Origin: a bacterium BMS3Bbin13
GTDB lineage: Bacteria > Pseudomonadota > Gammaproteobacteria > 21-64-14
Assembly (NCBI GenBank): GCA_002897735.1
Contig: BDTW01000015.1
Location: forward strand, 1 to 64,000
Direction of reading: 5' to 3'
Length of the DNA stretch: 64,000 nt
Every line of letters starts with the position of its first letter. The stretch's first letter is position 1. Made by a program: the position numbers and the translations under genes. Shown here piece by piece: positions 52,047 to 61,078 of the stretch. The notes under the pieces were generated by a model, which saw only the letters and a program-made list of their open reading frames with translations, searched no databases and was not told the origin of the DNA.

Positions 52047-52062
52047 AGCAAATCGCATGCCA
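52047..52062 (-). promoter_or_regulatory. Sigma-54 promoter of fixABCX
   Basis: Minus strand TGGCATG-CGAT-TTGCT, one base from consensus, exact spacing, about 97 bp before the fixA ATG. Confidence 0.85.
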
Positions 52063-52146
52063 TCGCGATGGGTGTGGATTCCAGGCTATGAATTCAAGGG
52101 ATTGCGAATGGCGGGTGCCGGCGGGGCCGGTCGGGTTTGCCACCAT

Positions 52147-52162
52147 TGTCGATTTCCCCACA
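52147..52162. promoter_or_regulatory. NifA upstream activator site for fixABCX
   Basis: TGT-CGATTTCCCC-ACA, an exact TGT-N10-ACA. Its centre is about 90 bp upstream of the fix -24 box. Confidence 0.8.
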
Positions 52163-52267
52163 AGCGTTCAAGGTGTGCGGCGCGATCGGCGCGATCGAAG
52201 TCCCGAGCCCGCCGGAGCACCCGGCACCGGGTCGACGGAGGGAGGCCGTATTCCTGCCGGACGGAGG

Positions 52268-52283
52268 TGTGCGGTTTGTGACA
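52268..52283. promoter_or_regulatory. NifA upstream activator site for the ferredoxin promoter
   Basis: TGT-GCGGTTTGTG-ACA, exact TGT-N10-ACA, about 105 bp before the -24 box at 52379. It could also help the divergent fix promoter. Confidence 0.8.
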
Positions 52284-52306
52284 AGGTTCGGCTCCGGGCG
52301 GCCGAT

Positions 52307-52322
52307 TGTCGCTATCGCAACA
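52307..52322. promoter_or_regulatory. Second NifA site for the ferredoxin promoter
   Basis: TGT-CGCTATCGCA-ACA, exact TGT-N10-ACA, 39 bp after the first and about 65 bp before the -24 box. Confidence 0.75.
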
Positions 52323-52378
52323 GGACGGGTGAGGATGAAACCTCTGGAAAAGCGGGCGGTTGAGCGAGATTCCGCTTT

Positions 52379-52394
52379 TGGCACAGGGTTTGCT
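52379..52394 (+). promoter_or_regulatory. Sigma-54 promoter of the ferredoxin gene
   Basis: TGGCACA-GGGT-TTGCT, a full consensus match. The ferredoxin ATG is about 135 bp downstream; nifLA may be read from here too. Confidence 0.9.
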
Positions 52395-58245: not shown

Positions 58246-58818
58246 GTGGACGGAACTCCGCAAGAGGCCAGGGTGTGCGTATTGCACGAGCGTCTGAGCG
58301 CGTGCGCCCGCGGGCGTCCCAATGACGAGCTGCTGGCCCGCATGCTGGCCAGCCGTGCCTGCGACCTCGGTGGGCTGCCGCCGGATTTGGGCCTTGATCC
58401 GGACGGATTCCGGCGGATGCTCGACCGGAATTTCGCCGGTGCGGACTGGCCTGCACCGGCGGGGGTCGGCCCGGCGGTGGATCCGAACCGCCAGCCCGAA
58501 CGTGACGATCTGCGCCGGTTGCTGCTCGCCCACCGGGCCCGGATCGATGCGTCCGAGCGGTGGGTGGCGGAAATCGTGGCGGCCGGGTGCATGGGCGGCA
58601 ACCACCTTTGGCAGGATCTCGGGTTGCGCTCACGCGGGGATCTCAACGATCTCATGGCGACCAATTTCCCCGAACTGGCCGCCCGGAACGATCGGAACAT
58701 GAAATGGAAGAAGTTTCTCTACAAGCAACTCTGCGAACGTGAAGGGATCCACGCCTGCCGGGCGCCGTCCTGCCAAGTGTGTATCGACTACGCCCAGTGC
58801 TTCGGGCCGGAGGAGTAG
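58246..58818 (+). CDS. nifQ: NifQ, molybdenum donor for FeMo-cofactor
   Basis: Protein of 190 residues. Late GCMGGNHLWQDLGLRSRGDL, NFPELAARNDRNMKWKKFLY and the cluster motif C-x4-C-x2-C-x5-C (CRAPSCQVCIDYAQC) identify NifQ. It carries a Mo-Fe-S cluster for transfer to NifEN/NifH. GTG start with GGGAGGG upstream; 12 bp after fdxN. Confidence 0.93.
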   Translation: MDGTPQEARVCVLHERLSACARGRPNDELLARMLASRACDLGGLPPDLGLDPDGFRRMLDRNFAGADWPAPAGVGPAVDPNRQPERDDLRRLLLAHRARIDASERWVAEIVAAGCMGGNHLWQDLGLRSRGDLNDLMATNFPELAARNDRNMKWKKFLYKQLCEREGIHACRAPSCQVCIDYAQCFGPEE

Positions 58819-58875: not shown

Positions 58876-59760
58876 TCAGCAGCCCATCGCTGCGCTCGAG
58901 ACCTCCGGTGCCGGCGGTTGCGTCGCGTCGCAGGCCCGCAGCAGTGCGGCCGAGTCCGCCTGGATGATCTCGATATCCCGGCGGGCACAGAAACGCCGTT
59001 CCTTCTCCGTCGGTTCCGGAATCAGCGCCCAACCCCGGGGCGTTCCGGCGCCATAAGTGATATCGGCCGACACCATGCGCTCGGTGTCCCGGGTCAACCT
59101 CAGCCCCAGGAACAAGTAGCGCCGGTTCCGGCGGTAGCGCTTGAGAAAGGCGGGGATCGCAAAGCCGCCCATCAACTCGGTGAGGTAGTCCACGTAATCG
59201 GCGTCTGAAGCGATGAAGGTGGGTTCGGGTCGCGGCGTCCCCATCGGTTTGAACAGGACCGGCAGGTCCGGGTCCGCGGCGTCCTGGTCGATTTCGCGGT
59301 ATCCGGTGTCGTCATGCATGAACACGCGGAAGCGGTATGCCGTGCCGCCGATGCGGGAAATGCCGACCACGAGAATGTGGGGCGTGTCCCGATAGACCTC
59401 CTGCAGTTGGGTGTCGCGGTTGATGTCGATCACATAGGGAGGCCGGATCCGCCCCAGCCACTCGTGCAGCGGCGCGAGGGTCCACTCGCGGGCGCCATAC
59501 AGATCCGTCAGGAAGCGATTGACGAAGCTGCGCCCGCGCCGGAGTTCCTGATTCATGGCGGCGCGCGGAAACTCGTACATGAGGCGCGGCGCCATCGGGT
59601 GGCCGTTGTTCATGGCCAGGATCAGACTCTCTCCGTCGGCCGGTATGGGAGCGCCGGTGACCGGATCGCAGGCGCCGTCGAGGGCGCCGGGTCCCAGATA
59701 GGGGATGACCTCGCCGGTGTGGATGCCGGCGATGATGGTCGACAAGTCGGGATCGTGCAT
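58876..59760 (-). CDS. SIR2-like domain protein in the nif regulon
   Basis: Protein of 294 residues. TGEVIPYLGPGALDG (15-29) resembles the NAD-binding start of SIR2_2-type proteins, where V-x-P-x-x-G-A-G is usual. LGRIRPPYVIDINRDTQLQE fills the place of the T-T-N-Y-D-x-x-L-E segment, and RRYLFLGLRLTRDTERM with ADITYGAGTPRGWALIP resembles the terminal segment. ATG at 59760 with GGAG upstream. A sigma-54 promoter and a NifA site lie upstream, and nifH is divergent. It may use NAD to modify a protein or metabolite connected with nitrogenase; this is inference. The canonical deacetylase His is not obvious. Confidence 0.7.
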   Translation of the reverse strand: MHDPDLSTIIAGIHTGEVIPYLGPGALDGACDPVTGAPIPADGESLILAMNNGHPMAPRLMYEFPRAAMNQELRRGRSFVNRFLTDLYGAREWTLAPLHEWLGRIRPPYVIDINRDTQLQEVYRDTPHILVVGISRIGGTAYRFRVFMHDDTGYREIDQDAADPDLPVLFKPMGTPRPEPTFIASDADYVDYLTELMGGFAIPAFLKRYRRNRRYLFLGLRLTRDTERMVSADITYGAGTPRGWALIPEPTEKERRFCARRDIEIIQADSAALLRACDATQPPAPEVSSAAMGC

Positions 59761-59799
59761 GTCTACGGTCTCCGTGGCGCGAAGGTCCGGGGACGAGCT

Positions 59800-59815
59800 T
59801 GCAAGATCCGGTCCA
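59800..59815 (-). promoter_or_regulatory. Sigma-54 promoter of the SIR2-like gene
   Basis: Minus strand TGGACCG-GATC-TTGCA: -24 GG and -12 GC at correct spacing, two differences from consensus. Start codon about 40 bp downstream. Confidence 0.65.
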
Positions 59816-59878
59816 CGAGCCCAAGTCGCTGAAAGCAGAAAGGACCGGCCGGCGGCCCCGGTGAAGTCCGCCGGCGTT

Positions 59879-59894
59879 TGTGCCAAAGCCGACA
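59879..59894. promoter_or_regulatory. NifA site of the SIR2-like gene
   Basis: TGT-GCCAAAGCCG-ACA, exact TGT-N10-ACA, about 70 bp upstream of the SIR2-like -24 box and about 230 bp from that of nifH. Confidence 0.72.
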
Positions 59895-60005
59895 AACCTT
59901 GTCGGCCGCGCCCGCTCTTCCGGGAGGTCGGGGCGTCCGGGATCGCCGCGGGCGGGTTCGGCGGTTGACGGGCCGTTGCGCATACCCCGGCGGTGCCGCG
60001 GGCCG

Positions 60006-60021
60006 TGTCGTCATCCATACA
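60006..60021. promoter_or_regulatory. NifA site of nifH
   Basis: TGT-CGTCATCCAT-ACA, exact TGT-N10-ACA, centred about 105 bp upstream of the nifH -24 box. Confidence 0.82.
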
Positions 60022-60118
60022 CGTCGCCCCGGATTGTCGGAGATGCCACCCCCGAAGGGGCTTCGGGCGGTGCCAAAAACGACAAACGAGTCCAGGGGTT
60101 ACGGCAACTCCCGGCAGA

Positions 60119-60134
60119 TGGCATGCTCCTTGCT
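60119..60134 (+). promoter_or_regulatory. Sigma-54 promoter of nifHDK
   Basis: TGGCATG-CTCC-TTGCT, one base from consensus, about 50 bp before the nifH ATG. Confidence 0.92.
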
Positions 60135-60148
60135 CAAATGGCCGGTAA

Positions 60149-61078
<930 letters not shown>

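Follow-up and report, generated by a model that had tools for sequence, protein, structure and literature searches.

A SIR2-like gene divergent from nifH belongs to a nif-associated family with conserved NifA-type promoters and an incomplete SIR2 active site

SIR2-like genes have been described in the nitrogen fixation context of several bacteria. In Pseudomonas stutzeri A1501, the gene PST_1325 encodes a SIR2 family protein, and PST_1326 is nifH (PMC11332353). PST1325 is induced 9.68-fold under nitrogen fixation, and a non-polar mutant had 23% of the wild-type nitrogenase activity in a strain without DraT and DraG (PMC2820453). This phenotype occupies a single line of a table, and no complementation is mentioned with it. 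The Rhodobacter capsulatus protein Rcc03262 was undetected in a nifA1-nifA2 mutant (PMC6925177), and the SIR2-like gene ZMO1821 of Zymomonas mobilis lies within the nif cluster and is upregulated under nitrogen fixation, for which a deacetylase role was proposed without a test (PMC8600466). The literature that we found names such proteins only as conserved hypothetical or SIR2 family proteins, and once as a likely deacetylase. Our survey of the open-licence literature revealed no report of missing catalytic residues in these proteins or of a linkage to draT.

We have examined a related gene, here called nif-SIR2, in a 64,000-nucleotide stretch of DNA (the window) from the gammaproteobacterium BMS3Bbin13 (contig BDTW01000015.1). 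A preliminary description of this sequence had placed a SIR2-like gene divergent from nifH, and this gene is real. Its product matches the Pfam family SIR2_2 (PF13289) at 33.7 bits relative to a cut-off of 24.5, and the same profile matches 75 of 76 aligned homologues with an E value of 0.01 or better. SIR2_2 is the sole Pfam family reported for the protein, with no match to the sirtuin family, to PF07357 (DraT) or to PF03747 (DraG), and searches of NCBIfam, PADLOC and PDB sequences yielded no useful match. The coordinates of the gene and its surrounding features are listed in Table 1. A longer open reading frame spanning 58876-60186 was ruled out as the gene, both by the start position of the homologues and by the location of the promoter, which would fall inside the extension. 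The interval 58876-60134 that was initially assigned to this feature comprises the gene in its lower part, and the remainder is a control region.

Table 1. Features of the nif-SIR2 locus in window coordinates.
Feature	Position	Strand	Details
nifQ	58246..58818	plus	convergent with nif-SIR2; PF04891
nif-SIR2 gene, subfamily I	58876..59760	minus	294 aa; ATG at 59760; Pfam SIR2_2 above cut-off; start common to homologues at 58-69% identity
Met173 codon (general-base His position, His lost)	59242..59244	minus	Met/Leu in 94/98 subfamily I rows
Asn114 codon (catalytic-Asn position, kept)	59419..59421	minus	Asn in 98/98 subfamily I rows
GPGAL, codons 23-27 (replaces canonical GAGxS motif)	59680..59694	minus	alignment
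-24/-12 sigma-54 element of nif-SIR2, TGGACCGGATCTTGCA	59800..59815	minus	2 mismatches to consensus; position conserved in 57/79 upstream regions
NifA-type upstream site TGT-N10-ACA, nearest nif-SIR2	59879..59894		exact; UAS present in 56/79 upstream regions
Second TGT-N10-ACA site, nearest nifH	60006..60021		second copy of the motif
-24/-12 sigma-54 element of nifH, TGGCATGCTCCTTGCT	60119..60134	plus	1 mismatch
nifH	60185..61078	plus	divergent from nif-SIR2; Arg101 kept; TIGR01287

The arrangement of the intergenic region agrees with the preliminary description, which had proposed that the SIR2-like gene has its own sigma-54-type promoter and an exact NifA site, and that it shares a control region with nifHDK. 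Divergent -24/-12 elements are indeed present, with two TGT-N10-ACA sites between them. The -24/-12 element of nif-SIR2 is not a strong match when taken alone, as sites with two mismatches are common by chance in the window (18 found versus 12.7 expected). The exact TGT-N10-ACA site at 59879-59894 is better evidence, yet one window is insufficient to settle the question of NifA control. We scanned GTDB genomes for relatives, which were found to be encoded by 518 stretches, and 80 of these loci were read with up to 9 kb of flanking sequence. Phylogenetic footprinting was carried out on 79 upstream regions, made up of homologues and the window, with up to two mismatches allowed in the -24/-12 element. 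This element is found at a constant distance from the start codon in 57 of the 79 regions, compared to an average of 0.8 for pieces drawn at random from these loci. The corresponding values for the upstream activator site (UAS) are 56 and 4.8, and both elements are present in register in 35 regions versus 0.3 for random pieces. This conservation across upstream regions places the nif-SIR2 promoter far beyond chance.

Both promoter elements persist where draT separates nifH from nif-SIR2. Moreover, 11 of the 12 loci whose flanks gave no queried nif or dra gene have a -24/-12 element with no more than three mismatches. NifA-type control is therefore a property of the nif-SIR2 gene itself. These promoters, together with the co-occurrence with nif described below and the published NifA dependence of the R. 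capsulatus member (PMC6925177), support the proposed membership of nif-SIR2 in the NifA regulon, and expression under this control is predicted for the window organism. Among relatives, Rcc03262 is undetected in cells lacking NifA (PMC6925177), and PST1325 is listed as induced under nitrogen fixation (PMC2820453). Elsewhere in the window (52047-52394), another pair of divergent sigma-54 sites is located at 52047 on the minus strand and at 52379 on the plus strand, the latter being a perfect match. Three TGT-N10-ACA sites lie between them, beside genes for FixAB-like electron-transfer flavoproteins upstream of nifLA.

The association of the family with nitrogen fixation was assessed in an evenly sampled set of 369 gammaproteobacterial genomes, of which 31 are nifD-positive (30 above the cut-off and one with the gene split over contigs). 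The nif-SIR2 family is present in 26 of these 31 genomes, with one copy each (Fisher p 8e-34). Only one further genome of the set, which is 81% complete, carries the family with nifH adjoining nif-SIR2 on the contig. A match in another genome was rejected as a family member because it is an ordinary SIR2 protein outside the family. The gene is missing from five of the 31 nifD-positive genomes, and thus it is not universally needed.

Genomic context is similarly consistent. Among the 80 loci, nif-SIR2 adjoins a divergent nifH in 15, follows draT, with nifH on its far side, in 19, adjoins a divergent nifE in seven, and is located near nifQ, fdxN, nifB or draG in 17 more. It is also divergent from nifH in all 20 loci from putative Pseudomonadaceae, including an Azotobacter-like genome. 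The family and genus names used for these loci are inferred in part from NifH likeness, and in one of the genomes NifH is nearly the same as the PDB protein from Azotobacter vinelandii. Distances between nif-SIR2 proteins track those of NifB, NifK, NifD and DraT (Mantel r 0.70-0.80). A second subfamily (subfamily II), with approximately 30% identity, is often found behind nifT, as in Rhizobium etli p42d and several others. Some loci depart from the common arrangements. In seven Halochromatium-type genomes, nif-SIR2 is divergent not from nifH but from a nifE-like gene whose product is about 31% identical to NifD. Subfamily I members adjoin nifH in two alphaproteobacteria, Rhodobium orientis and a Hyphomicrobiales MAG (loci L039 and L085), and the gammaproteobacterial gene order at L039 suggests transfer of a nif cluster.

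The preliminary description had drawn attention to NifH Arg101 and to the absence of draT and draG from the window, and had raised the possibility of an NAD-dependent switch or repair factor for nitrogenase. Arg101 is retained in the window NifH, and the absence extends beyond the window, as neither the DRAT nor the ADP_ribosyl_GH family was found in the whole genome (96.9% complete). The genome-wide search for draTG that had been proposed was thus negative. In many relatives, draT is directly upstream of nif-SIR2 and draG lies beyond, and draT and draG may have been lost from the window lineage. The labels draT, draG and ald in these loci derive from recognition in the sequence of one locus (L032) and from tblastn searches, and PF07357 confirms DraT in several of the same genomes. 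In four loci, L032 among them, an alanine dehydrogenase-like gene adjoins draG, downstream of nif-SIR2. In three loci, from Candidatus Thiodiazotropha and from a related symbiont, draT and nif-SIR2 are 2.4-7.5 kb apart, and the NifA-type promoter of nif-SIR2 is kept.

In the main rival explanation, nif-SIR2 serves as a non-catalytic sensor of NAD or ADP-ribose. It would either adjust nitrogenase to the redox or energy state or act with DraT and DraG on ADP-ribosylated NifH where these enzymes are present. This reading draws on the draT-nif-SIR2-draG order in relatives, on the close tracking of DraT distances (r 0.80), on the SIR2 fold, and on the retention of Asn114 and, in part, of the glycine-rich loop. 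However, the presence of nif-SIR2 shows no link to that of DraT (12/27 against 4/5, Fisher p 0.33), and the sequence upstream of draT yielded no good -24/-12 element in the loci examined. The two genes are therefore neighbours rather than parts of one regulon. A draT-SIR2 operon was likewise rejected as the unit of control, given that a separate -24/-12 element and UAS precede nif-SIR2. In addition, both enzymes are absent from the window genome, the mutant phenotype listed for P. stutzeri was obtained in a strain that lacks them (PMC2820453), and the Ser of the GAGxS motif, examined below, is lost. On balance, we regard a sensor function as improbable, but worth keeping in mind ahead of the other alternatives.

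Structurally, the window protein is predicted with high confidence by AlphaFold2 (pLDDT 92.6), and the closest solved folds are those of the antiphage SIR2 proteins DSR2, KomC and ThsA (Foldseek E 4e-9 to 7e-8, TM about 0.6, 14-16% identity). This resemblance is in keeping with the earlier suggestion that the protein guards nitrogen-fixing cells against phages through NAD depletion. Such a role is very improbable, as the protein lacks the catalytic His and the GAGxS Ser, there is no PADLOC match, no homologue was found in the phage collection, and no sensor domain or partner gene adjoins nif-SIR2 in the window. Its nif neighbourhood, its control by NifA and its almost exclusive occurrence alongside nif also argue against a function in defence.

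Subfamilies I and II group together in a single clade (support 96/92) that excludes ordinary SIR2_2 proteins, in a tree where several outgroup branches are long. The window protein carries the DxNRD and KPxG motifs, falls within the nif-linked clade, has its own NifA-type promoter and lies in a nif neighbourhood, all of which are hallmarks of subfamily I. In this subfamily, GPGxL replaces the GAGxS motif, with Leu at the canonical Ser position in 97 of 98 aligned rows. The general-base His is absent from 96 of 97 distinct members, and all 20 additional putative Pseudomonadaceae members combine Asn with Leu at the two catalytic positions. Subfamily II has Trp in place of the catalytic Asn. An initial formulation that the His is lost in all members was dropped, because some alphaproteobacterial members of subfamily II keep it, always together with this Trp. 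Across the whole family, both catalytic residues are present in only one of 115 distinct members, from Marinobacterium zhoushanense, whereas nearly all ordinary SIR2_2 proteins taken from the same class as a control retain both. The Marinobacterium protein has KPHG along with the Asn, possibly by reversion. A second, longer SIR2_2 protein encoded in the same genome as the window (contig C1:26914-27396) keeps GAGIS and STNYD and apparently carries Asn at the catalytic His position (KINGC).

The importance of these positions is known from other SIR2 proteins. The ThsA substitutions N112A and H152A each abolish NAD cleavage, mutants of either residue also fail to bind NAD, and H152A additionally disturbs the oligomer (PMC7272460). 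Similarly, both Asn and His are required in FAM118 (PMC12700824). Because Asn and His so rarely coexist in the nif-SIR2 family, and because GAGxS has given way to GPGxL, canonical SIR2 catalysis is unlikely as its conserved function. Moreover, with the His missing from nearly all of subfamily I and the Asn from subfamily II, the family has no canonical active site in common. Of the earlier proposal of an NAD-dependent switch or repair factor, the link to nitrogenase is supported by promoters, co-occurrence and the published data on relatives (PMC6925177, PMC2820453), but the chemistry is not supported.

The absence of a single residue is not proof that all catalysis has been lost. Asn114, Arg115 and Asp116 do not vary within subfamily I, and the further invariant polar residues His128, Asp112 and Lys171 could, together with Arg115, form an alternative active site. 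These residues, as well as the deacetylase role proposed for ZMO1821 (PMC8600466), would be accommodated by an enzyme whose active site has been rearranged, acting as a deacylase, as an NADase or in ADP-ribose processing, and modifying NifH or another nif protein. This is, in our judgement, somewhat less likely than a sensor function, considering the nearly complete loss of the His in subfamily I, the Trp substitution in subfamily II, and the lack of paired zinc-site cysteines. The four cysteines of the window protein (31, 258, 276 and 294) include no CxxC pair, and there is no Cys4 zinc site.

We consider it reasonably likely that nif-SIR2 is a nitrogenase-dedicated accessory protein that is made with NifHDK under the control of NifA and sigma-54 and that acts most probably by binding. 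Four observations favour this reading: a positive effect on nitrogenase in a strain without DraT and DraG, a promoter of the same type as that of nifHDK, the neighbouring genes nifH, nifE and nifZT, and the degenerate active site. The effect of gene deletion on nitrogenase that had been suggested as an experiment is in essence already published as the table entry for PST1325 (PMC2820453), which, judging by its annotation, gene position and the sampled Pseudomonadaceae loci, is probably a member of subfamily I. The present analysis shows the conserved NifA/sigma-54 promoter, the co-occurrence with nif, the predicted fold and the loss of a catalytic residue, and published work on relatives documents a dependence on NifA and a benefit to nitrogenase activity. 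The non-enzymatic mode of action is inferred from these features, and the partner and the ligand named below are guesses. In the proposed mechanism, nif-SIR2 would be produced together with NifHDK, and its SIR2-type Rossmann fold, in which the active site is no longer complete, would serve for binding rather than for NAD hydrolysis or deacylation. The protein might hold a nitrogenase component, perhaps NifH or an assembly intermediate of NifDK, in a manner that could be gated by a nucleotide occupying the former NAD pocket, where non-catalytic binding of NAD or ADP-ribose may occur. Nitrogenase would thereby be helped to reach or keep full activity. A broader formulation, to which we assign roughly even weight, is that nif-SIR2 proteins constitute a widespread, nitrogenase-dedicated family of SIR2 pseudo-enzymes whose two sister subfamilies differ in the catalytic residue that was lost, recruited as a nitrogenase maturation or protection factor or as an NAD/ADP-ribose-gated clamp, independent of DraT and DraG.

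An apparently NifA-controlled nif-SIR2 gene is found in hundreds of diazotrophs, among them Azotobacter- and Stutzerimonas-type genomes. Its inclusion in the nif toolkit, probably without SIR2 chemistry, redirects experiments on these proteins. The gene could also matter for the transfer of nitrogenase to new hosts, in which accessory factors may be limiting for activity, and it would represent a testable case of an antiphage-type fold that has been turned into a metabolic helper.

Among known systems, the CobB-type sirtuin deacetylases are set apart from the window protein by their sirtuin Pfam match and Cys4 zinc site. The phage-defence NADases DSR2, ThsA and KomC have the fold and the SIR2_2 domain in common with it, but at 14-16% identity, and the window protein differs from them in lacking the catalytic His, the GAGxS Ser and a defence context. 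Specifically, the Asn of the TTNxD motif of ThsA and DSR2 is kept, whereas the His of their HG motif is replaced by Met173. ZMO1821 resembles the window gene as a SIR2-like gene of a nif cluster, a likeness drawn from its published description. Rcc03262 is also a SIR2 family protein in a nif context with a link to NifA. However, it is encoded within the operon nifB1-rcc03265-nifZT-rcc03262 and, judged by gene order, likely belongs to subfamily II, whereas the window gene is of subfamily I and has its own promoter beside nifH. PST_1325 of Stutzerimonas stutzeri A1501 adjoins nifH and carries a SIR2 annotation, as does the window gene, and the sampled Pseudomonadaceae members have KPLG where the window protein has KPMG.
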